Positions 20,857 through 60,056 of a stretch of DNA of 64,000 nt are shown here, piece after piece. The notes beneath the pieces are model-generated. The model made no database searches and had not been told where the DNA came from. It was given only the letters and a program-made list of their open reading frames with translations. The DNA lies in the NCBI GenBank assembly GCA_003971905.1, contig RSEE01000029.1:620001-684000 (forward strand), written 5' to 3'. The DNA is from Moniliella sp. 'wahieum'. Lineage: Eukaryota > Basidiomycota > Moniliellomycetes > Moniliellales > Moniliellaceae. How positions within the stretch are numbered: position 1 is the stretch's first letter; every line of letters starts with the position of its first letter. The position numbers and the translations under genes were made by a program.

Positions 20857-20902
20857 ACTTCGCTACATGGGCTTAGCGCTTACTCGCTTACTTTATTAGA
20901 GT

Positions 20903-21269
20903 CGTGACAAGAACGCCAAGTACCACAGGGACGCGCTCAAGAGCCGTTTTTCCCCCTGGTTTTTTGACGACGCGAGGATACTGCGGCACCAAGACAGCGG
21001 GCAAGATGCTCGGGCACTGGAAGGACTTGACTACTGACTCTCAATGGAAATGGTTCCTCGCTCGGATGTCTACTACGTTCATCCGTGTCCACACGCGCTA
21101 CCGGGTACGGGAACGGATGGCGGTCACACCAGAGGTCTTCATCTCCTGGCGATTCCCTTGGTTCCTTAAGCGGGGTTGGCACTACCAAGCATCACACGCA
21201 AGACGAACGGGTGGTTTATAGGCGTAGCGTTTCCCTGTTCCAGCCTTAAGCTCTGTCGATGATATGGAT
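20903..21269 (+). mobile_element. 5'-truncated LINE 3' end
   Basis: This segment is about 80% identical by eye to the reverse complement of 49338-49710, which is the 3' end of the longer LINE in this window. Shared blocks include GACGACGCGAGGATACT, CTCCTGGCGATTCCCTTGG, TAGGCGTAGCGTTTC and CAGCCTTAAGCTCTG. Both copies lose similarity after ATATGGAT/GTATGGAT, which marks the 3' end. The coding part is the end of the LINE protein plus the 3' UTR. Only the last 370 bp are present, as expected from incomplete reverse transcription. Confidence 0.85.
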
Positions 21270-24162: not shown

Positions 24163-26057
24163 TCAGAATGAACGGCTTGGAGAGGTCCGCAGCGACGCCG
24201 AAAACGCCGGCCAGGAATCAGGCTGACCAGCATTGTTGAATGGTTGGACGTGCCACCCAGGAGGCATGCCCGCCACCGTGCTCGCTCCCTCCTTGGAGTT
24301 CGTCTCGGCCCAGTGTGGCGGAGTGTAAGGTGTCGCGACGGTGGGATACGTGGGCGTGTGGTACGCCGGGGCCAACACCGTAGAAGGAATGCCAAACAGC
24401 GATCCACTGGCCAGTTGGTAATATGTCAGCGCATTGGGCTTGGGCGCCACACCTACGCCCCTCCCATACGAGAAAGGCGCTACCAGCGTCTGTGGGGCGC
24501 CAAGTGGGGTGCCCATCATGGTAAAGTACCCATTCTCTTGCGGAGCAAGCACGTTGGAAGGACATGCTTGGGTCCCCATCCCCACCTCGTTGCACAACGA
24601 AGGCCCAGCAGAGGGGCACCGGCCCAACCGTTCGTGCCACCGTGTCGCTGCGGCCGGGTGAGCCGGGGAAACACAGGGTGGAGCAGTCGAAGAGGGCGGA
24701 AGGGAGTAGGCAGGGGACAACATGCGTGCTCTCTCCTCCCACGGTACAGTAGACGGGGCGGTGCTGATGGTGCTAAGGGTGGCACTGTCCAATACAGATG
24801 CTGGTGAACCGGTAGAGGGGTAGCCGTGGGGACTGGAAGCACTAGGAGTGGTGCGCTGCGTGCCTGTGGCTGGAAAAGATGACGCTGGAATTGGCAAAGC
24901 GGGCGGGAGGTTTGGCAGGTGGTCCCATTGCCGCGGCGGAGAGATGGAAGGGTAAGTACGACCAATGGACCGGCTACGGAGGGGCGATAGACGGTCTTGA
25001 AGTCCACGGGTCGTGAGCAGACCGATGGATGCGGGTCGGCTTGGACGGGGCTGATCCGACGGACGCTCCTCCGTCCTGGATCGCGGGAAGCTACCTGCGG
25101 CGCACACGCTTCCCTCCGCTCAGCGGTAATGGCTTGGATGCGATGGGACCAGCGGTCAAACTGGTCCGCTGGTACGTGCACCGTCATCCCCAGTCCGCGC
25201 CACAACTCCACCTCGGCATGAGTGAGGGAAGCAAGCGGAATGTTGCTCAACTCGGACCAGGTTTTGGTCGTATAAGTGTTATCGTCCAAGTACTTGTTGG
25301 CCAACATCAGGGACACGATGGCGGCGCGGAATTCGGAGCCGGGAGAGCAACTCAAGTGTGGCTGGGACTCCTTGAAACGGTGGAGATAGTACAGCGCCAA
25401 CAGCACAATGGAGGTAGAGAGTTGTGTGGTGCGCAAGACCTTATGCACAAAGCTGGTGAATTCGGCAGTGGGGTGCAGACGCATTTGTCGAGACTCGCCA
25501 GCCAGCGGAGGGGAAGGAGACCTAGGCGAGCTCACCGTTCCCAATGAGGATGGCCTGCTGGGCTCGGGGGAATGTGCAGCGGAACAAGGAGAGGTGGGCG
25601 GGGCATACCAGATGTAGCAGGTTAGACTCGCAAACCACTCCGCACGGGAGAGAAGAGCGGCATCATGGGTATGGCGTCGGCGCTTGTGAGGGTTGGGACG
25701 AGTATCGGCGGAGGTAGCGACGGGGGGAGCGACGGGGGGAGCGGCGCTCGTCGTGGCCGTCACTGTCAGTGCGGTGGGAAGAGCCGTGGAGGGAGCGACG
25801 ACGGCGGGGGCAGCCAATGCAGGCAGCTGGGCAGCAGCCAGAGACGAATGGTGGTCCCGTGGCTTCTGCAGCTCGGGGAGTGGTGGGAGCGGGAGCTGTG
25901 GTAGGGTGTGGGGTGGGGAAGCGGGAGGCGAAGAGAGCGGGGGCGGGGTGAGGGTGAACGACAGCTTGCGCTTCAACGGAGCGGCGTCCACATAGGGCGC
26001 AGCGACTGGCGACATGGGGGAGGCAAGGGCGAGAGGTGGTGGGGGGGCGAAGGCCAT
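24163..26057 (-). CDS. Pcl-type (Pho85-associated) cyclin
   Basis: Probably a partner of a Pho85-type kinase. The start at MAFAPPPPLALASP is the second Met of the open frame and follows a TATA-like, GC-poor stretch. The N-terminal 170 residues are Pro/Ala/Ser/Thr-rich with a basic patch HKRRRHTHD. The cyclin box covers about residues 170-330: AEFTSFVHKVLRTTQLSTS, IVLLALYYLHRFKE, GSEFRAAIVSLMLANKYLDD, TYTTKTWSELSNIPL, HAEVELWRGLGM, FDRWSHRIQA. The last 300 residues are low complexity and end PSRSF. The box is continuous; a frame shift near 25090 separates it from the tail. It belongs to the Pcl1/Pcl2/Clg1-like branch and is clearly different from the Pho80-like cyclin at 6.6-8.0 kb. Confidence 0.85.
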
Positions 26058-26645
26058 GAATGATATGGACGAGGGGGTGGGGGGCGAGCACGGGGAGTAG
26101 CAGCGGTGGTATGTGGGTTGTGCAAAGAGTAGTATATTTTGGAGGTGTGTCACGCGTTGGTGCGGTCTGCGTTGTGTGCGAGTGACGAGTTGCTAGCAGC
26201 GTTGCCAGTTAGTCGCTAGTAGCTATTAGCTGCTGGTGCTAGGGACTAGGTACCGGCCCTGGCCCATGCATCAATTGAGTACGGGGTCTGCGCACCAGCA
26301 CTTCAAAGGAGCTGTCACGCGTGAAGATGAATGAGATGATAGATATGCGATGCATGATGCATGACGGCTGGTGTGATGGGATGGATGAATACACGATGGA
26401 TGATACAATGTGAGACCCAGATCGGAGAGGAACGCGAAGGCCCTACCCAAGTGTGTGTGATGCCTCTGGAAAGTCGATGTTAAATGACATGCGACACTAT
26501 GTATGGTCCACGTTCCTCCCATCTTGTCCGCAGCTGTGGCACATGCCCCCTGTCACATGTCACACACCGTCGGTCACACATTGCCGCTCCCCGCTGCCCG
26601 ATCACTAAGTACTAACGTTTATAGTACGTTTAACGTTTAACATCA

Positions 26646-26675
26646 ACCATTAAATATTAATCATTAATCATTGGT
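26646..26675. repeat. ATTAATC heptads
   Basis: ATTAAATATTAATCATTAATCATTGG: two exact ATTAATC units with decayed flanks. This is the A/T-only member of the family. Confidence 0.8.
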
Positions 26676-26811
26676 CACAAGCACACATGACATTTCGCGC
26701 CCCCCAATGGCACCGTCGGGGTGGGACACAGTGGGACCTGGGGCCTGGTGGGACTGGTAGGTGGGACATGGAGCAGGTGGCAGGCAAGCCGGGATTGAAT
26801 ATTGTGTAGTG

Positions 26812-26860
26812 GTGCATGATGCATGATGTATGACGCATACCATGCATGCATGATACATGG
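26812..26860. repeat. ATGCATG heptads
   Basis: ATGCATG, ATGCATG, ATGTATG, ACGCATA and related units in a 7-bp register. Confidence 0.85.
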
Positions 26861-27675
26861 TTCAGTCCTCGGGTTTCGTTGCAAGGCGGGGACGGGGTGC
26901 ACCAGGTGCAGTTGGTGCAGTTGGTTAAGCGGGCCATGGCTGCGCCATACGACGCGGTGGGATATGGGTTGCGCTGCCGCCACGCATCATGTTCCGAATG
27001 CACATACCGTCCATGCAGTCAATTCTTCACATGCTTCACATCTCCGCAGCGAACCCAGTGCTTTTTGCAGCGTTTCTTTTTGTTTTGGCAAAATAGAGAG
27101 CAACTGGTGTGACTAGTGACTGTAATAGTACTTCCAAATACTGGCAGCACGGACGAGAACTACAGATACAATGTTGCGCATCTCATGTACGTAGAAGACA
27201 CCCTCGCCGCTGTTGAATAGATCATTCTTCCTTCTACGTAGTCGCTTTCATGGCCACGATGCCGGTGGAAACGGAGGATTCTTGTTTGCTGCTCCTGCGC
27301 CACCCAGCTTACCCAGCCTCGGACCCAGGGTGCTCCTTGGCGCCCCTGTATGGGTCTCACAGGCCTCGTGCCGGTACCAATCATTAAATTAATCACGAGT
27401 GACCGGTGACTCGCCTAATGGCCTACACAGCCCCTCTGCCCTGCCGTAGCAGGTTGCATCTCTGCCTTCTCATCCTATGCTCCACACCTTCACCTCTTTT
27501 TTTCGGTCGGTCGGTCGCGTTCGCGTTTAGCGTTCACGGTCACAACTTAGTGCTTGCCGGTTACCCGAGTCTAGGTGAGCCGGTGACACTAGTGGCGCGG
27601 ACATTGGCCATCGATGCCCAATTAGAAATGGAAATGTAAATGGAATCAGCAAAATAGGGAGCAGTCTTCAAGCTT

Positions 27676-27722
27676 CACTATAGTCACTAGTCACTAGTCA
27701 CTGTCATTAGTTACTATAGTCA
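27676..27722. repeat. ACTAGTC heptads
   Basis: Exact units at 27686 and 27693, flanked by ACTATAGTC and ATTAGTTACTATAGTC variants. Confidence 0.88.
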
Positions 27723-28571
27723 CTTAGTATTCAAGCTCAGTTCGTTGCGGCGCCGGTGTTTGCTTTGCTCGCGCTCCAGGCACTCTGTGAGAAACACCTA
27801 CAACAGCCAAAGGGCCAGCGACTGCGACGGAGAGAGACGTCTATGTTTTAGATGCCTTCCCGAGGGCCGACGCTCCACCCGCGCTCAGCACAGCTGCACA
27901 AACCGCACCCACACCAGCCCCACACTGCGAGCGTCGGTGACCGGTGACCAACATCCAAAGTCCAATATCCAATTCGCCCTACCCTATCTTTTGGCCGCAG
28001 GGCCCTAGATGCGTTGGCCGTTCGCCGGCCAGGTTGCGTTCGATGCATTGGGGAGGGTGTTACATGTTACTGGTTACCGGGTGCATTCGCATACTGGGCC
28101 TCAGGCAGGCCTGAGCCTCAGGCCTCAAGCTTCAAGGATCTCAAAAGCTTCAAGCCTTCCCCGGGTCACCGTCACCGGGTCACCGCGGTCAGCCGCTCAC
28201 CTCTCAGGGTCTTAAGGCTTCAAGCTTCAGGGCCCCTCATGCACCATGCATGATGAACGTATGGACAGCCGCAGCAGGCCGCAGTCCCTTGGCTTGGAGC
28301 CCTTGAGTTAAGCGCTTAAGCACAAAAGGGATTGTGCAATGCGTTGTGGTGCCTTGGCTTGGTGCGCGCACCACCCTCTCCTATTCTTGTCGTATCGATC
28401 GTATCATGCATGACGCATGACGTTCAACGGAACAGTCAGACATCTCAGATGCCACAGACTACCCCACGCTTTAGTTCTAAAACGACCAAAGCCATCCCCC
28501 TGAGCCTTAGGGCCCTCGGCCTGAGGGCGTAACCACTGCCTCCCTCAAGGGCTCGGCCTAAACGTCCTCTC

Positions 28572-28599
28572 AGATCTCAGATCTCAGATCTTAGATCTC
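28572..28599. repeat. AGATCTC heptad array
   Basis: Four phased units: AGATCTC, AGATCTC, AGATCTT, AGATCTC. Only the spacer base varies. Confidence 0.95.
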
Positions 28600-29343
28600 A
28601 ACCTCCCAACTCACAACGTTCAACCGTTCAACGGGCAACGTCAACTGCCTCACGCCGCAACGTCTCAGAGTTGGTTTCAACTGCCTCCTGGGCAGCGATT
28701 AATAAATGGCTTCACCAGTCACTAGTCACTGAAGAGTGAGGTGGTTTGGATCTGAGATCTGAGATCGCTTATTCATGGTATGAACCTGACGCAGCGTAAT
28801 TCTCTGGGGCTTAGTCGTTCTCTTCGGAGCTCGACGCAGTAAGACGTTAAGGCTGCTTAATTTGGCTAAAGCGCGATATGGCAGGAACGTGAACGCCGAC
28901 AGGGAAAGAGCGTCCAGGATCCGATCACATGATCACTAGGCCACTTGTTCCCAGTCCCATGTCACATGTCGCAGTTACATGTCACACAATTGGATTGGGC
29001 GTCGAACGTTGAACACTATTGGTACCGAAGTTCACTTCAGCAACTGAGGTGGAAGTTGAACCTCAGCTCAGCACGGTCAGCTGTTCCATGTTCAGGCTGA
29101 GCATCCCAGCGCCCAGCTTTATTGGGTGACCAGTGACGCGTGACGCGGAGACGGAGCGGAGAGCGTCGGAGAAGTGTAACGCATGACGCATGACGCGTGA
29201 AATGACCTGTGATTCCCTGGACACCGATCATCGAGATCACCGATCATCGATCATCCCCTTGTACTTAAAATGGCAAAAGTAGGCTTGTAGCATGTAGAGA
29301 GAGTAATTTAGAAGCTGAACGTGTGAACGTAGCGTAATGTTCA

Positions 29344-29361
29344 GGTGACCGGTGACCGGTG
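29344..29361. repeat. ACCGGTG heptads
   Basis: GTGACCGGTGACCGGTGAG: two exact units of ACCGGT plus G. Confidence 0.88.
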
Positions 29362-30219
29362 AGCGTGGAGTGCCACAAAGGACAGGAGAAAATATCTAAC
29401 AGCCTCTTTCTCAATTGTCAACATGTCAACGTCTATGCACTGTGCCAGCTCTGATCTGCACGCTTTGGATCTGTGCTGCATGTGCCTACGGATAAGAGGC
29501 ACGCCAGGGGTACGATGTACCAAGAAAGACGATGTACCATGGTCGATGGCCGGTGGCCGCGGCGCACCTCGGCTCGGTGCTCGGCGGCCAGTTGAACGTT
29601 GAATGGAACATTGGGCCGAGCAGGCACAGGAACGGCCGGCTTCGAATGTTAAACGTTAAACATTAAGGGCGTTCCGCGCGTTACGCGTTAGGCGGCAACG
29701 CGGGTAACATTAACACCTAAGGCCTAAGGCGTTAAATAAGGGCCAGGCGCGAATAAGGGGGGCGTTGGCATTGTGAAACAAGGAAATTAATCAGCAAAAA
29801 AGTTTCGCATCATACGCATGCCCTTGAAGCTTAGCTTGAAGCTTGACCGGTGGAGTGGCTGGTTCGTGGCTGGGCCGAAAGCAAGGTCGGCAACGCATTG
29901 CTGTGCGCGGGGTGCAATACGCAATAGCAGCGGTGCGTCCCGCAGCCCCAGCCCAAATTGGCCGAGCAAGGGGCGCAAGCAGGCGCAAGCCCTTTCCGCC
30001 AAGCACCCGGTCCTGAGTGCCCTATAGGTTTCCCATGCGGCCACAACGTCGATACTCGGTTGCCCAGCTCAGTGTGGCTCTCAGCAAGCGCTGAATCTCT
30101 CATTGCCACCATTGTCGGTAACTACTGGCATATTAGCTCGCATTAATTCAACTCGAGTGCAACCCCTGCCGCGTGAAGTAATAATAGTAAAACTGCAGTA
30201 CTATAACTATTAGCTATAG

Positions 30220-30240
30220 TAACGCGTAACGCGTAACGTA
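30220..30240. repeat. ACGCGTA heptads
   Basis: TAACGCGTAACGCGTAACG: ACGCGT palindromes with spacer A. Similar pairs occur at about 32003-32022 and 33007-33026. Confidence 0.9.
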
Positions 30241-31220
30241 TACCCAACCAAAGGAACAGTGGCACCCCGGAGTTCCACTGAAGTACAGAAGCCACAAAGA
30301 GTCCACTGCATTGCAATGCGGTGCGTGAGCTGTGCACAGCGTGTGTGAACGCATGAGTTTTCCGTTTCGGCCACTCGTGCAGGTGACGGACCCTGGCGGA
30401 CTATAGAATGCCTACGTGGCGTACTGACTTGCGCGTAGTGCACACGACCCTGGTCGAGGCGCTGAGGCGCTGAGGGCCCTGCGGCCTGAAGCCCTGAGAC
30501 GCGCTGACGCCTGACGGGCCTGACGCCCCCTGGCGCCTCAGCCGGAGGCCTGATGGCGCTGAGGCGCTGTATGATGTAGGACGAGCAGTCTAACGGTGTG
30601 CCCGCGATGAGATCGATGAGCCGCGCACCACGAGGACTCATTATTACGGTTTAAGAGACGTAAGATCTGTAAGAGTTGCGCTAGCCAGTAGCACGCGTCG
30701 AGAATATACTCGCTCCATCAGTAATAGGGTTTGGCGGGGATAGTCGATAGCATGACACCGCCGCCACGCCGACAGGTACTGATGGCAACATGTAAAACAG
30801 AATGCCTGTCCTGGTGCCCTGGAGCTCAGCGCTCAGACTGAGCTTTGACCGGGACGGGCCTGAGGCTCAGATGCCCGGGACTCATGAGTGCATGAGCTCA
30901 GGCCGGCTCAGGAGTTCAAGCCTCGGGCTGCGTTATTTTATCGGTGCCAATTAAACCTGCACGGACCCGTCCAAAACAATAAGAGCAAAACTGATCATCG
31001 ATGCTCGTAGATAGCCGGATGACCGATGACCGGCCAAACCCGGTAACGCGGTAACGGCCGGTAACCATGAATCAAGAGCCGACAACCCGCGCTCAAGCGT
31101 GCGAACGCCCCCAAACGCCCTCAAAGGCAGAGCGTGTACCACCGCAACGTAAGGAAGAGTGTACAAGACCAGAGCAGGCAGTTCATGACGTTGATGTGCG
31201 TTGGACGTATGTTGAAATTG

Positions 31221-31248
31221 AATATTGAACGTTGATGCATGATGCATG
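31221..31248. repeat. Phase-locked mixed heptads
   Basis: Four units in exact register but with three different palindromes: AATATTG, AACGTTG, ATGCATG, ATGCATG. A near-unit AAATTG precedes them. Confidence 0.93.
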
Positions 31249-31380
31249 ATGGTACGTTGATGGTGCATTGCACATATGAGCTACGGACAGAAAATTCCTA
31301 CCCTCCAATATTGGGAGGGATGTACCAGATGGACCCGGACTTGGGCTACCCGCGCCACTGGGCCAGTGTGGCGCCACAAA

Positions 31381-31570
31381 GTGTACTCGGATGAGTACGA
31401 TGAGTACTGAGTCTCAGTACGGAGGTACTCAGAACTCTGAACGCAGAACATAGAACTCAGACTGAATCCTTAGTTCGATCCGAACTCAGATCCAGATCCA
31501 GACTGAGTAAGTCCTGAGTACTTAACGGAAAACTTATCTGAGTACTGAGTAGTACTGAGTTACTGAGTGT
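31381..31570. repeat. AGTACT-rich tract
   Basis: GAGTAC, AGTACTG and GAACTCAG units recur through about 190 bp at 7-bp or near-7-bp spacing. A similar tract lies at 33640-33715. Confidence 0.75.
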
Positions 31571-31736
31571 GCAACGAAGTATGCGCGTCACGCGTCACGC
31601 GACATGCCTCGGTGCCCCGGCATCCCATGTCCATATCCACATCCTTCGCGCTCCTGCTGCTCCCTGCTGCTCCAGCTCGACCAAGCTCAACAAAACCGCG
31701 CCGACCAGCAACCACGTGATAAGCCCAGTAACGATG

Positions 31737-31771
31737 ACATGTCACATGTCACATGTCACATGTCACATGTC
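31737..31771. repeat. (ACATGTC)5 heptad array
   Basis: Five exact tandem units of the palindrome ACATGT plus C; the longest perfect palindromic array of the block. Confidence 0.97.
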
Positions 31772-32356
31772 ACTGGCGCCTCGGCCAGTAAATATGAATC
31801 TTTGATTCGATCAACATCCGTGACGCATGTGTGATTGGGACGGATCACATGTATCGCAACCTACAATTGCATGTTACACAGTGCTTATTATTTGGTGCTC
31901 TGTTTGGGTTGACGCGTTGATGCGTTGACGCGGTGACGGTGATATACATACTTGACGCCCGTTTGAGCCGCCTGTTCCCATTTCATCTTGGCACGCATGG
32001 GAAAACGCGTAACGCGTAACGCACAACTGGCCGGGAAACGTAAGTGTCACAATAGGATCGATAGTCGATTGAATATTGACCACGAATCCCCTGCTCAATA
32101 CTCCAGAACTCAGTGTCCTCAAACTCTTTTCCTTGTTCATTGTTCATTGTTCCATGTTCATCCTTCGTTCGTGATTAAAGTGTGACACGTGAAGAAGAGG
32201 TGAATATGAATGCGATTGCGACGGGTGACCTAGGTGGAACAGGCATGTTACGCGTTACGTACGTTCCTTTTATTCGCTTCGTTGTGATGCTGTGCTCCTT
32301 GAGGGCCTGAGATCTGAGAACCCGAGCGCCCGAGCGTCTCAGGCGTCCGCTTCAGG

Positions 32357-32380
32357 TGAAGCTTGAAGCTTGAAGCTTGA
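32357..32380. repeat. (AAGCTTG)3 heptad array
   Basis: Three exact units of AAGCTT plus G. Confidence 0.95.
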
Positions 32381-32904
32381 AACGTATCAATATCATATAT
32401 CACACATCAAGAACGTCACCCGTCACGCGCCGACGAAGTGCCGATGTGACAGTCCGCTCGGCTGCGGCTATGAGAATTCACAACGATTAATTACGTGTGT
32501 GGGGCAAGAGGGGCAAGCCAACAGCGTCTCGAATTCCGTAAGCGTCGGGCGCCCGCTGTGGGACCTTGGGCCGCCAGCTGCCCTCGGCGCCCCCCTTCTC
32601 CCCCAACGTTACGCGTGACGTCACGTGACGCGTAAAGCCTAAGCCCTGAGACGGAGGCCCGAAGCTTGCTTGAAGGGGGGGATTCGGCCTTGTTCTGCCG
32701 GGCAGCCGGCCGGGCGCTTATGCCCATTTGGGCATGTAGCGAAACTACAATGTGCACTGGGTTGTCGACAGCCTGGTGTCGCTCCAAAAAAAAGACGCCG
32801 GGCTACCCGAAGCACCGGCCAATGGCGAGGGTTGAAGAGGGGACAGTCCCATCTGGTGCGAAACGTTTTTACGCGTTACGCGTTCAAGACGTTGTTCAAG
32901 CGTG

Positions 32905-32932
32905 ACGCGTGACGCGTGACGCGTGAAGCTTG
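32905..32932. repeat. ACGCGTG x3 then AAGCTTG
   Basis: Three ACGCGTG units are followed in the same 7-bp register by one AAGCTTG unit, so the palindrome changes while the spacing does not. Confidence 0.95.
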
Positions 32933-33743
32933 AAGGTCTAGAAACTAGTAACTAGTAACGAGCTACTTGCTGGTATGTAGCAACTAGGAACTAGGAACTT
33001 ATAACTTGTAACGCGTAACGCGTAACGATTCATCGATATTCAAGCTTCAAGTGTTCTAAGATCTGGATCTGAATCTGAGGCCGGAGGCAGGCCCTGAGGA
33101 CTCAGGCTCAGATCTGAGTTTGGATATCAGGCAGTGGGCTTTGATATATTGATGACGGCTTGCTTGTGAGCGCATAAGCAGGTGACATTGTGGGCCCCAT
33201 GTGACATATGTGCGCTAGCGCTGAGCATGGGACATGACGCATGACGCACGTGATTGGTGATATGTGATGTGCATGGCATGTGAGCTGTGAGCTGTGAGCT
33301 GCGTGTGCGCCGAGCTCAAGCAGCCAAAATTTTGGGAGCTGAGACCACCGAGACTTGACACTAGCTTGAAGCTTCAAGTTGAAGAGCTCTTGATGTAAAG
33401 CATCAGTGCATCAGTGCCATGATGCATGAGTGCATGAGTGCCCTTCAGAGCCGGCGCTCAGTCTCAGCTTGTCCATTGCCAATATGCCAATTCGAAACTA
33501 GTAGAATTTGCCTGAGAACGTCGTGCGGGTCTGCGCTGCGTTCAGCCTGAACCCTGAACAGCGCGGCTCAGTCGCTCAGGCGCTCAACGTTGAATCGTTC
33601 AATACGTTCCATGTATTGCTGTATACTCCCGTACTCGGTAGTCAGAACGGACTCAGAACTCAGAGTACTGAATTCAGAGTACTAGAACTCAGTACTCTGA
33701 GAACTCAGATCCAGACCCAATGATGCTAAAGCCCAGTACGTTC

Positions 33744-33764
33744 AACGTTGAACGTTGAACGTTG
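33744..33764. repeat. (AACGTTG)3 heptad array
   Basis: Three exact units of AACGTT plus G, flanked by CGTTC and AACAAC. Confidence 0.95.
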
Positions 33765-34256
33765 AACAACAACTCCCATTCAGAGGGTTTACTACGTACT
33801 CCCCAGTGGCGCAGGCCCTGGGTACGATTGTTCCGGGTGCTCCCTGTTGTTCCTGGGCTTTGCACCCATTTGTCTAGCCGGCCCAGGCCAGCCCTATATT
33901 ATCCTCCCCGCGCCGACACGGGTAATATCACACATCACGTCTCACGATGATCAGGCCGTTGCTTCCGTCCCATACCGTCCCATACCGTCCCATGCCGTAA
34001 GCGCGAAACCCGTACCTTGGGCATTACGCGTTCGTTACGCGTTACGCACCGCCTCTTCCTGCCTTTTTCCGGCCCCAGCGTTCACCGGTCACCAGAACCC
34101 GCGGCCGTGGGCGTGCCAGGCCGTGCCACGTGACGCACCGGACGACGGAGTCGGCAGTACTAGTACTAGCGGCTAGTGGCTGAGACTGAGGTGCCGCCTG
34201 GTGCCGCCTGGTGCATCGTTTGCGATCATCGATCATGCACCATGCATCATCGAAGC

Positions 34257-34305
34257 ATTAATCATTAATCATCGATCATCGATCATCGATCATCAATCAT
34301 CGATC
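34257..34305. repeat. Seven phased heptads, ATTAATC / ATCGATC / ATCAATC
   Basis: In exact 7-bp register: ATTAATC, ATTAATC, ATCGATC, ATCGATC, ATCGATC, ATCAATC, ATCGATC. Decayed units with ATCGATC and ATGCATC continue upstream to about 34220. Confidence 0.97.
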
Positions 34306-35099
34306 ATCCTTTATGTGTCACATGCCACGGTACAGCTCCCCTGCGACGGGCAGTGTGGGCGATGGTGCCGCTCTGTGCCGCGGCAGCCTATGGCATTCCC
34401 TGCGCACTCTCAGATCTCAGCCACAAGGAACGGCAGACATGCTCTACCCCGCAAAGCCACGCGCCACGTTGTTCCTGCATCGAAGTGTGTGTCGATATTC
34501 GATAGAGCGGCCCGGACGCCACCCGTGGTTGTGCCCCCCCCTAAGACAGGTCGCCGGCAAGGTGTCGAAGTGGGGACTTTTTCTGAGAGGCTCTGATGCG
34601 TGATGCGTGATCAGCTTGTTGCATATGGTGGAATCGAGCGTCTAAGGCCGTAGGCCCATAGAATGTTTTGAGTCTGAACCATTAATCAGGTCCAATGAGT
34701 ACTCAGACTGAGTGAGCAGTGATGTAGTGACGCGAGTGTGGCGTGGGGACATTTTCTGGTTTGGCGTAGTAGCGTGGAAGAGTGGAGCGCGTGGGCGTTG
34801 CAGGCCTATCTGGCTTGTGGTGCAAAGGGGGCGGGATACCGAGCTCGGAACCCCCGGGAGCGTGCCCACAAAAACCCGCAGTCATCATGCTCAAGCTTAC
34901 TTCTAATTGATTAATGCTTGACTTCAATCGAAAGTGACGGTATACTGACTCAGACTAGAGAAAGAGCTTCAAGCTTCAAGCTTCACGCGTCACGTTTCAA
35001 GTGTGCGCCACCGCGCCCATGCTTGCCGAGATTGGACCAGCTGCACCAAAAAACCAAACAAAAGAGAACAGGCAGAAGGTCTGAGGATGACTTCTGGTA

Positions 35100-35127
35100 A
35101 CCGGTGACCGGTGACCGGTGATCAATG
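35100..35127. repeat. ACCGGTG x3 then ATCAATG
   Basis: Three exact ACCGGTG units followed in register by ATCAATG. Confidence 0.94.
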
Positions 35128-35350
35128 AGCACTTCGATCATTTCTACTTCGTACGTAGTACAGGCACTGGGCGTTAGGCTGTCATGCGCATGTGTGTCAC
35201 TTCTGCCACAGAAGCAACTCTGCTCGCCAGGAGACAGAAGGTCTGGCAGCTTGACCAGTGCCAACAAGCCCCCGTGGCGTTGTTCAACGTTCAGGCCTGA
35301 GCGCCTGAGCGCCTGAGCTGAGGGGTGACACCGCACAGGTCACCGCCATC

Positions 35351-35375
35351 AACGTTCAACGTTCAACGTTCAACT
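35351..35375. repeat. (AACGTTC)3 heptad array
   Basis: Three tandem units of AACGTT plus C, the complement-strand form of the AACGTTG unit. Confidence 0.94.
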
Positions 35376-36166
35376 TGAACGCCCAAGATGAGGCCGATGA
35401 AGCCGAGGTGCGGCAGGCCAGGCCTTTAACAAGCCTATGGCCTTAAAATTTAAAAGCCTCACATGTCACAGCCTCTGAGCATCGAAGTAAGTGCCCTATT
35501 TTAAGCACTCTGTGGAAGCGGCAAGCGGCATACCAGGCCCAGTACGCCCCTCTGTGATGCCGGTGATATATGATACGGGTCCGGGTAATTATTAAATGCC
35601 GCGCTGAAATGCAAATGATTAATCGATGATGAATAATGTACTCGAAAGACTCCCGAGACTGGGTTCTGACATCTGACAGATCTGACCCTAATATCGACTA
35701 CCTATGTCAAGCTTCCCTCGAATCGATCGGTACAACGACGACTGGGGGGCGGCTGGATCAGCTGACGGCGGGCGGGAGGCTTTCGGCTTTCCCCGGTTAT
35801 CGAGTTATCGGTTAACCCGTTCAACGTTCGACAGGCTGTTGTCTCCGTCCACAGCCTCCCCGGCATCAACACCGGGAGGCATCTTGCATCATGTGCATCA
35901 TGCATTATGCATTACCGCCATTTATTATTCTGTCTTTTTCCCCATCGACCTCATCGGCCTCAGGGCCTCATCAATCATCTCGTCATCGATCATCGCTCAT
36001 CTCAGCCTCAGGCGTCATCAGCTTCTTTCGACTCGATGGCACCTCGGCGGTATCTCAAGGGTCCTGTGGTCATTTCGCGTTTTGTTGCCTCCAACGGTTC
36101 CGGCTTGTGCTTCTCGTCCTGTCTGACTTCTGAGGCCCTCAATCGAATGTGCGAGCTCTGTAACGG

Positions 36167-36180
36167 AGTACTGAGTACTG
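36167..36180. repeat. (AGTACTG)2 heptads
   Basis: Two exact units of AGTACT plus G. Confidence 0.85.
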
Positions 36181-36648
36181 AGTGGCTGAGAGCGGCTCAA
36201 GTGGCTTAAAACTTGAGACTCTTCTTTGTTACAAGCCAACGACCAAGAACTAACTGTCCGATGCCCCACCACTGAATTTGAAGCGAAGGATGTCAGCCTC
36301 TTTTTTGCTTCGGGTTCCACATTCAGTTGCTCCGCCTCTTAAATTGTGGGAGGACCATCGTTCTTTTCTTCACAGGTTGTCAGTACTGTCCGTACTGAGA
36401 CTCCGTTGGATATACTCAGTTGCTGAGTGTAATACTACTCATAGACACTCCTACAGGTGCTCACACCGTTGATCAGGAATGTCATACTTTTGCCATTCAT
36501 TTACTCAAGCCGCGAACTCACAACACATTGTGCCTCTTTTTGAATAGTACTCCGTTCCACGTTGACTCTGCGGGTGCGGGCCTGGACTCTGCCCGTGACA
36601 CGTTTAACCGCGTCTCGTGAAATAGTCAGGGTGCTTTGGCCTCGCCTC

Positions 36649-36669
36649 AGGCCTCAGGCCTCGGGCCTC
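36649..36669. repeat. AGGCCTC heptads
   Basis: AGGCCTC, AGGCCTC, GGGCCTC in register, showing that the GGCC core also occurs. Confidence 0.9.
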
Positions 36670-37298
36670 ACAGCCTCACCTGTGGCCGCCCAAATGTCAC
36701 AGCTGTGAGGGTCAGCCTGTGAGCCACAGAGCTCAGCCTGAGCGGCTCACTAGTTTCGACATTTTCTCTGTTGACATTCATCACATCAAAAATGCCCATC
36801 TGGAAAAGGGTGTTGCGAGCTTTGGTTGCGGCATCCAATAATGTGTGTGCTCGCCATTGATTCTTTCCATCGGCTTTCACACAAGGTTACGATCCTGAGG
36901 CCACGAGGGTGTCCCATCAAATGTGTCCCTCTCCGTCCACACAACCCGCCAAAATGTTGAGTAACAGGGTTCCACACCACGGGGAAGGAGAAACGTCAAC
37001 GTCTGTATAACACACACACACCCTGAGCAGTCTGCATGCAAAAACTGTCTCTCTTTTATCAAGTTTTGGAAACGTATAGAGACAGCCATACCACGGAGAC
37101 ACAGGGACAAGGCTCTCGTTGTCATCAGTGTGGGCGGACGTCGGCCCGGGGCCCGACCTACAGTTTAGAGGTGCTTTCCCTTGGAGAAGGGCTGGCCACA
37201 CTCAGTATGTAATCAGTACTCAGTACTCACGGTGGACCAAGCCTTCTGAACCCTGAACCTTGAGCAACACTTTTAGCGGATCTGAACTCTGAATGGGG

Positions 37299-47505: not shown

Positions 47506-48213
47506 TGACAATGGACGGACGGACGGACGGACGGACGGATCGATGGACTTTTTGTTTGTTTGGGCCTTGTTGGCTCCGTTTGCCAGTTGCTCTTGCCGGT
47601 TGCTGCTTGGACTCCTACGCGCGCACAACTTTCATCCATGCTTGTCTCTTTTTGCTCTCAGCTCTCGCGCGACGAGGGGGGGAGGTAGGCGCCACCTCGG
47701 CCGTAGCTCGCTAACGGGTTGGCTTGGCTTGACTTGGCTTGGCTTGGTAGACCTCAGCAGCCAAAAAGCGGTCGGAAAGGCGAGGTAAGATAGGCCAGAC
47801 CAGGTGCCAAAAGGTACTTACGGCTGCAGAGGCAGACTGCCCTGCGTATCGCACGGTCGTGCACCTGACACAACGGTGTTAACCAATGCCCCTTTCGGCT
47901 GTGGTTAATGATTATGCATTATGGGATTGCGGGCCAAGGGGAGGAGCTAAGACCACCAGTGGCACTGGGCTTTCTGTACCTCTGTAGTACGGCCTACGGA
48001 GAGAGACTCAGTCGGGTGGGGAGGAGGGGGTAAGGCCTAAGGTAGGGCAAGGTATGTGGGAAAGTGAGTAGCACAGTGGGATCCGGGACACTGGGGAGGA
48101 CTGAGCCTAACCTCAGAGGTCAGGGCCTCAGTACTGAGACTCAGTAGGGATCGGTTTTGGGCTAGGGCGGTGAGGTGAACGTGTTAAACGAGGTTAAACG
48201 TATGAAGACGGTG

Positions 48214-48295
48214 ACCGGTGACCGGTGAACATTGAATATCGGCATCATGCATCACCGGTCACCGGTCACCGGTCACATGTCACATGTCACATGTC
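48214..48295. repeat. Mixed heptad tract ACCGGTG / AACATTG / ACCGGTC / ACATGTC
   Basis: Left part: ACCGGTG, ACCGGTG, AACATTG in register. Right part (48254-48295): three ACCGGTC units followed in register by three ACATGTC units. The spacer is G on the left and C on the right, so the tract forms an imperfect inverted repeat. Confidence 0.94.
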
Positions 48296-59980: not shown

Positions 59981-60056
59981 ATGCATGATGCATGATGCAT
60001 GATGCATGGTGTCTGATGCATGGTGTCTGATGCATGATGTGCGATGTGTGATGCTG
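59981..60056. repeat. ATGCATG / GTGTCTG phased heptad tract
   Basis: Ten units in exact 7-bp register: ATGCATG x4, GTGTCTG, ATGCATG, GTGTCTG, ATGCATG, ATGTGCG, ATGTGTG. Non-palindromic GTGTCTG units keep the phase of their neighbours. Confidence 0.95.

Follow-up and report, generated by a model that had tools for sequence, protein, structure and literature searches.

What gives so many unrelated repeats in one stretch of DNA the same formula? Between positions 26600 and 36700 of a 64,000-nucleotide stretch of the genome of the basidiomycete Moniliella sp. 'wahieum' (contig RSEE01000029.1, C29:620001-684000; here called the window), short tandem arrays of exact 7-bp period differ freely in sequence, yet each unit consists of an A, a 4-bp palindrome, a T and one spacer base. 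The assembly comprises 69.5 Mb in 223 contigs and carries a second haplotype of this region, from which single events can be read. We read the arrays as traces left over time by a single kind of mutation that keeps recurring, a 7-bp insertion at the trinucleotide TNA. To our knowledge, this rule has not been described in the literature.

It is near certain that the arrays exist and follow the rule. The window contains 61 period-7 runs of at least 16 nt, or 58 once three low-complexity runs are removed. In 45 of the 58 the unit is a 6-bp palindrome plus one spacer base, always of the form A....T (45/45), with C (20), G (14), A (6) or T (5) as spacer; between 26600 and 36700, 25 of 31 runs are palindromic. 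All 61 palindromic hexamers that recur at lag 7 in the window belong to the A..T class, whereas 20 dinucleotide-preserving shuffles in 1-kb blocks yield on average 0.55 palindromes of any kind and 0.0 of this class. Counts at lags 6 and 8-13 range from 0 to 9, with 24 at the harmonic lag 14. Non-palindromic hexamers are also raised at lag 7 (692 versus 24), as expected from arrays that contain every rotation of the unit. Chance, ordinary microsatellites or an assembly artefact would therefore be a negligible source of the pattern: ordinary 6-, 12- and 5-bp repeats are indeed present in the window too, but the A..T class is missing from shuffles, nothing comparable appears at other lags or in other triplet classes, and at two loci the contigs of the two haplotypes differ by this very grammar.

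The phenomenon is genome-wide, and 26600-36700 is only its densest stretch. In a 200-kb sample drawn from 20 contigs, 39 palindromic hexamers recur at lag 7 (36 A..T, 3 C..G), compared with 1-7 at lags 6 and 8-13, and 34 of 53 period-7 runs are palindromic (32 A..T, 2 C..G); heptad density is lower there than in the window. Across all 69.5 Mb, four in-phase TCA triplets (TCAN4TCAN4TCAN4TCA) occur 3108 + 3340 = 6448 times, and the reversed pattern 578 + 620 = 1198 times, a control that is probably inflated, as some heptad arrays contain the control pattern too. The three-unit 21-mer of the ACATGTC array occurs 162 times in the genome and its reversed control not at all. The original prediction of palindromic heptads with a lag-7 excess throughout the genome is thus borne out. 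Of the 14 units it named between 26600 and 36700, 13 are found as runs, and AATATTG occurs there as a single unit only (ATTGAATATTGA, at 32068).

The rule can be restated as TNA-(4-bp palindrome)-TNA with the same N on both sides. We examined this form in the window and the 200-kb sample together (264 kb), a set biased towards dense DNA, from which 10,529 sites with four TCA in phase would be extrapolated against the 6448 counted genome-wide. Among TNA pairs at lag 7 with the same N, 327 of 587 enclose a palindromic core, and 164 of these 327 units lie in the 200-kb sample. For comparison, the fraction is 3-7% in the other lag-7 triplet classes (ANT 8/260, CNG 37/514, GNC 38/639, the rest 412/6768). 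Over lags 5-15, TNA pairs come nowhere near the lag-7 value except at the harmonic 14 (66/303); lags 5 and 6 have a high background, since a single base pair is compared. All 16 possible cores are used, from AGCT (51) down to AATT (3), and the predicted common formula holds across unrelated sequences. When all trinucleotide pairs with gaps of 1-14 are ranked by z-score, TCA-N4-TCA comes first (5.0-fold enriched) and TAA-N4-TAA third (8.9-fold), with GGA-N3-GGA between them. The flanking triplets share their middle base, with the 587 same-N pairs facing 116 flipped ones (TNA...TN'A). Within a chain, adjacent cores are the same in 63 cases and different in 15, with 82 further cases that include a non-palindromic member; phase and spacer are kept when cores differ. 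Beyond TNA we found no strong motif and no strand bias, the centre is C or G in 106 of 135, and an orientation dependent on the spacer was looked for and not found.

Isolated units bear on the origin of the palindrome. In 152 isolated palindromic units (157 isolated non-palindromic pairs were kept out of this count), we compared the core with the two outer bases on either side. A match is confined to the left flank in 51 units and to the right flank in another 51, while 28 units match on both sides and 22 have no match. Independence would give about 41 and 35 for the last two classes; the two sides are negatively associated. Duplication of a pre-existing palindrome should make the two-sided class dominate, and we therefore rejected a palindromic target, as 102 of the 152 match one flank only. 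This suggests that the palindrome is produced by the event and not recognized beforehand. Where five bases (TNAXY or pqTNA) are duplicated at lag 7 on one side, the 2-nt filler is an inverted copy in 102 cases, an inverted copy with one mismatch in 36 and something else in 7; a further 17 isolated cases are plain 7-bp duplications and 28 are two-sided with a palindromic core. The length of the inverted copy is sharply 2-3 bases: 102 cases fit 2-3 (29 of them also 1) and 28 fit 0-3, while 4 fit 1 only, 17 fit 0 (8 also 1) and 15 fit 4-5. Single-base copies are thus nearly absent, with four unambiguous isolated cases, and the 15 copies of 4-5 bases flip the spacer. Copies of two and of three bases give indistinguishable products, because T is complementary to A. 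Pairs whose spacer is flipped form a minor class, in which TNA-palindrome-TN'A makes a perfect 10-bp palindrome; 30 of 116 such pairs are palindromic, about four times background, and the class fits inverted copies of 4-5 bases.

Individual events can be read by comparing haplotypes. The second haplotype matches the window over 20295-51343 in 14 blocks (27,073 aligned bp, 96.0% identity; the counterpart region examined is C102:133001-168000). A second copy was found at three of three probed loci, so roughly half of the 69.5 Mb may represent the haploid genome. Indels of 4, 5, 6, 7, 8 and 9 bp number 17, 17, 22, 33, 7 and 11, making 7 bp the most frequent length among those of at least 4 bp. 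TNA is duplicated in 18 of the 33 seven-bp indels, 5 of 22 at 6 bp, 3 of 7 at 8 bp, 1 of 46 at 3 bp and in none of the 17 at 4 or the 17 at 5 bp. Scored by script, 15 of the 33 are exact palindromic events (nine left-type, five right-type, one both); the other 18 comprise one plain TNA-centred duplication, two non-palindromic cases and 15 without TNA duplication. One indel, at 26649, was at first scored non-palindromic and is an exact left-type event, a sixteenth, in the TAA register. With a prime denoting the reverse complement, the right-type product is pqTNAXY -> pqTNAXY[Y'X']TNAXY, and the left-type product, pqTNAXY -> pqTNA[q'p']pqTNAXY, is the right type on the opposite strand. The flank is matched in all 15 palindromic events, and on this ground a core supplied by a transposon end was rejected. 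Besides the events in Table 1, TTAGG became TTAGGCCTTAGG, GTTGA became GTTGAACGTTGA and GCTAA became GCTAAGCGCTAA. Given the inferred ancestral state, the two haplotypes seem to have undergone separate events at the TCA near 34083 (34081..34093). At an unlinked locus (C6/C83, 1,171 alignment columns), two of three seven-bp indels are exact right-type events, TCATC -> TCATCGATCATC and TTACT -> TTACTAGTTACT. On the basis of these haplotype pairs at two loci, the arrays almost certainly grow by 7-bp insertions at TNA, each made in one step and templated on one side. The original prediction placed the constraint on shape or copying mechanism, and inverted templating of a few bases supports the latter; what is constrained is not the palindromic heptad itself, as it had proposed, but a TNA site that gains 7 bp, with 2-3 neighboring bases copied in inverted form.

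The units avoid coding sequence. In the window, 22 of 163 lie within sequence covered by open reading frames (ORFs), although coverage is 56%; in the 264 kb the figures are 44 of 327, with ORFs covering 141 of 264 kb. The window segment 26209-38800 (about 12 kb), which has the highest heptad density, contains no stop-to-stop ORF of 150 amino acids. The location of 141 of the 163 window units outside ORFs might be taken to indicate selection for a DNA- or RNA-binding function that requires palindromic heptads, such as a dimeric regulator, a chromatin mark or a hairpin transcript, and long arrays could presumably fold. Yet this avoidance is already expected, because 7-bp insertions cause frameshifts. 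Moreover, all 16 cores are used without a strong motif past TNA, 102 of 152 isolated units match only one flank, and perfect units are gained in one step within single haplotypes. We consider selection very improbable, and the heptad-reading protein or chromatin signal suggested earlier finds no support.

Replication slippage or template switching could in principle yield the same product with no dedicated enzyme, if a nascent strand folded at TNA, copied two of its own bases and re-annealed seven bases back; a left-type product would correspond to a 7-nt hairpin that is extruded and then copied again. The later addition of whole units to arrays does look slippage-like, as in the unit gained at 35100, which may have arisen this way, and in the 63 same-core neighbors. 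Re-annealing demands that the bases past the copied pair equal the inverted copy, however, and of the 14 one-sided haplotype events only 2 (21256 and 30846; hand count) carry these return pairing bases, which is near chance. One-base loops closed by T-A are sterically poor, and known stable triloops are of the GNA type; this counts against folding at TNA, as does the fact that slippage leaves the exclusivity of TNA among symmetric triplets unexplained. Slippage would also copy a whole existing unit, of arbitrary sequence and without a palindromic rule. In the 14 one-sided events the new core is instead the inverted copy of one flank, some event sites (for example 29688) already adjoin an older unit with a different core, and 45 of 58 runs are palindromic A..T. 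Slippage as the primary event, one option in the original prediction, is thus improbable.

The cause is probably a TNA-specific staggered break with hairpin-like ends. Each event reads as a 7-bp duplication centered on the N of TNA, except that at the junction an inverted copy of neighboring bases takes the place of two (or three) bases. A putative enzyme specific for TNA would cut both strands, with a stagger of 7 nt placed symmetrically about N. Once filled in, the ends would form hairpins or similar fold-backs, to be opened 2-3 nt from the tip; of the two palindromic overhangs one would be retained and the other trimmed, and end joining would close the break. In this inferred chemistry, two bases are gained on one side and two are lost on the other, for a net gain of seven. 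The product has two TNAs, such that the event can recur in place, and events further outward found a new core in unchanged phase, with later array growth probably aided by ordinary slippage. A second event on the product would found a new core in one case out of four and otherwise repeat the existing one; by hand count, 7 of 38 two-core chains that are entirely palindromic are mixed. Somewhat more tentatively, and as a possibility only, we propose that the agent is a sequence-specific endogenous mutator, not tied to a transposon, whose 7-nt stagger on TNA and self-templated hairpin repair write units across non-coding DNA and are the main source of 7-bp indels between haplotypes.

Most of the statistics are approached by a simulation that allows only the templated event and re-entry into arrays, at 6% point change and with the number of events chosen by hand. 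Simulated left, right, both and neither classes are 52, 66, 10 and 23 (observed 51, 51, 28 and 22), and same and different neighboring cores stand at 35:8 (observed 63:15). Palindromic cores make up 45% in the simulation and 56% in the data, compared with 7% in a model of plain 7-bp duplication.

Several observations weigh against the staggered-break reading. As aligned, TNA duplication is absent from 15 of the 33 seven-bp haplotype indels. Nor is the 7-bp length absolute, since 6-bp (5/22) and 8-bp (3/7) indels also duplicate TNA. TNA pairs are slightly raised at lags 8-10 (20/192, 10/230 and 7/122). Some triplets other than TNA have a raised palindromic fraction, the highest being ATG (29/183) and CCA (27/205). 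A third locus (C19/C14, 1,885 alignment columns) has no seven-bp indel, and one of its two 8-bp indels duplicates GGTGACGT. The products expected if both overhangs were kept (+11) or both trimmed (+3) are rare, with two palindromes in 3 of 142 TNA-N8-TNA sites and a duplicated TNA in 1 of 46 three-bp indels. Two-sided units are more common than simulated (28 versus 10), an excess that suggests site heterogeneity or superimposed ordinary slippage. A 5-nt asymmetric stagger followed by the addition of two bases would give identical products. Finally, a profile search of the genome for hAT dimerisation (PF05699), Plavaka (PF18759), KDZ (PF18758), DDE_Tnp_4 (PF13359) and DDE_1 (PF03184) domains gave no match, where only PF13359 had a working control (it responded in 1 of 14 genomes) and the other four had none. 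The integrase core PF00665 gave 148 matches, and profile searching therefore works in this genome, which is probably rich in long terminal repeat (LTR) elements.

The break could also be made by a transposon, as a special case of the staggered-break explanation. The units would then be excision footprints of a cut-and-paste element with a 7-bp, TNA-centered target duplication and hairpin flanks, as in hAT elements. The products do have the shape of such footprints, a full duplication that loses a few bases on one side and gains an equal number of inverted bases on the other. Symmetric targets with T at -1, A at +1 and a free center are typical of DDE enzymes, and the T.A target here resembles them. 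We nevertheless regard this version as rather unlikely. Inserts 60-4000 bp long that combine inverted ends with 3-9-bp duplications were sought in the window and at 30 loci; at duplication length 7, 8 of 11 hits are TNA-centered, and by eye these are heptad arrays or the two overlapping loci that adjoin a solo LTR. Seven large haplotype indels, likewise inspected by eye, show no 7-bp TNA duplication, the five domains are without a match (four uncontrolled), and the density of units implies tens of thousands of excisions. A fixed-size transposon or miniature inverted-repeat transposable element was rejected, as TNA-flanked inserts with terminal inverted repeats led only to heptad arrays and one LTR neighborhood.

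Two further leads were also set aside. The repeat at L007:236-1078, about 845 bp long and bounded by TGTCA...TGACA, was rejected as the agent, its TG..CA ends and 5-bp duplication being those of a solo LTR; the heptads show a 7-bp gain and no ends. Target duplications of 5 bp flank 18 of 20 sampled copies (L045 and L073 are without one, and for L071 the left end was judged by eye). At least 39 further near-full copies at 92-97% identity, from 40 scored of 605 candidates, mark this as a young solo-LTR family; the L007 copy lies within a TCACCGG heptad array. An exact IMG/VR match to one array (L009:1341-1440) lies on a contig of 74% GC with its own degenerate 7-bp repeat (GGTCACC / GGTCCCT). 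A phage collection searched with one stretch of the window gave no match.

Known systems share single features with the heptads. In hAT-type excision footprints (Ac/Ds, Tam3), junction bases are replaced by inverted flank copies, attributed to hairpin ends opened off-center; the heptads are alike in having a target duplication with a few inverted flank bases at the junction. The hAT duplication is usually 8 bp, however, while here it is 7 bp around an invariant T.A pair (the 8-bp indels number only seven); inverted lengths are variable in hAT footprints and sharply 2-3 here, heptad sites are hit again and build up arrays, and the scanned loci contain no convincing element with a 7-bp target duplication, with the hAT domain search empty though uncontrolled. 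V(D)J coding joints carry P-nucleotides of about two inverted bases, from hairpins nicked by Artemis about 2 nt from the tip. The copies at the joint are of similar length, but a heptad is a single symmetric site that gains 7 bp, with no signal sequences and no intervening deletion seen. IS1031-group and PIF/Harbinger elements duplicate 3-bp TNA or TWA targets, and PIF-type excision is usually precise. The heptads share with these and with IS5-like elements an absolute three-base T.A target without a strong wider motif, but differ in duplicating more than 3 bp, and the DDE_Tnp_4 transposase of such elements is the PF13359 domain for which no match was obtained. Abr1 of Agaricus bisporus, an element with 7-bp direct repeats, likewise shows a 7-bp target duplication in a fungus, but no such element was found in the scanned loci. 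Cyanobacterial short tandemly repeated repetitive (STRR) heptanucleotides and ordinary minisatellites are likewise tandem repeats in intergenic DNA, STRR units being 7 bp as here, but they consist of a few fixed unit sequences, whereas the heptads are free in sequence and fixed in form. Fungal mitochondria harbor mobile palindromic (A)n/(T)n microsatellites and double-hairpin elements (PMC7218506), which resemble the heptads as optional palindromic short repeats in intergenic DNA; those elements are mitochondrial and are mononucleotide runs or fixed elements, and the passages concerned do not describe a 7-bp rule.

It is unusual for a repeat class to be set by grammar and not by sequence, and in this case two haplotypes directly reveal the generating event. 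It represents a new source of tandem-repeat birth, where most models treat growth and not origin, and its mutational signature can be scanned for in any genome. It also offers a lead to a putative enzyme with a three-letter target and very uniform end processing. Some caution follows for such genomes, in which palindromic motifs, or those resembling AP-1 or restriction sites, can arise by mutation without selection.

Table 1. Heptad arrays and single events in the window (window coordinates).
Feature	Position	Strand	Remarks
Densest TNA-pal4-TNA stretch	26600..36700	.	13-23 units per 2 kb over 26001-36000, without long ORFs
Left-type event ACTAA -> ACTAAGTACTAA	26604..26610	+	7 bases missing from other haplotype
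Array (ACTAGTC)3.1	27681..27702	+	
Array (AGATCTC)3.4	28568..28591	+	
Empty site; other haplotype right-type TGACC -> TGACCGGTGACC	30846..30850	+	
TGA-phase run, cores ATAT, ACGT, TGCA, TGCA	31219..31249	+	core varies, phase and spacer constant
Array (ACATGTC)5.3, TCA sites, core CATG	31737..31773	+	period-7 run
Left-type event ATTGA -> ATTGAATATTGA	32068..32074	+	haplotype-specific
Array (AAGCTTG)3.6	32357..32381	+	
Left-type event TATCA -> TATCATATATCA	32390..32396	+	haplotype-specific
Array (ACGCGTG)3.9, then in-phase AGCT core	32900..32926	+	
Empty site; other haplotype right-type TGACA -> TGACATGTGACA	33356..33360	+	
Plain 7-bp duplication centered on TGA (CCTGAAC x2)	33546..33552	+	haplotype-specific, without inverted copy
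Array (AACGTTG)3.4	33744..33767	+	
Single TCA apparently hit twice	34081..34093	+	right-type in window TTCACCGGTCACC; three left-type units in other haplotype TTCAACGTTCAACGTTCAACGTTCACC
Mixed-core array, single TCA phase: TTAA, TCGA x3, TCAA, TCGA	34256..34306	+	other haplotype, as aligned, lacks 64 bp of this neighborhood
Array (ACCGGTG)3.1	35100..35121	+	other haplotype shorter by one 7-bp unit (insertion at 35100)
Left-type event GTTCA -> GTTCAACGTTCA	35282..35288	+	haplotype-specific
Array (AACGTTC)3.7	35349..35374	+	
Array (AGTACTG)2.6	36166..36183	+	
Array (AGGCCTC)2.7	36644..36662	+	
Second array cluster: CCGG cores, then TGCA, CCGG x3, CATG x2 sharing one TCA phase	48209..48295	+	
Array (ATGCATG)	59981..60039	+	partly decayed

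The coding content includes Nuf2, cyclin, CorA, arginase, C1, Sel1 and TPR proteins and, like the genome's size and its haplotypes, points to a fungus; a protein search returned distant TPR proteins only. The two haplotypes also differ by a 2.29-kb insertion in the other haplotype at window position 20898-20905, with no obvious target duplication, and by further differences of 0.25-2 kb at 35803, 37591, 39423, 41410, 43335 and 50001. A tandem 10-bp repeat, CCGTCCCATA, occupies 33965-33998, and the other haplotype has one additional unit of it.

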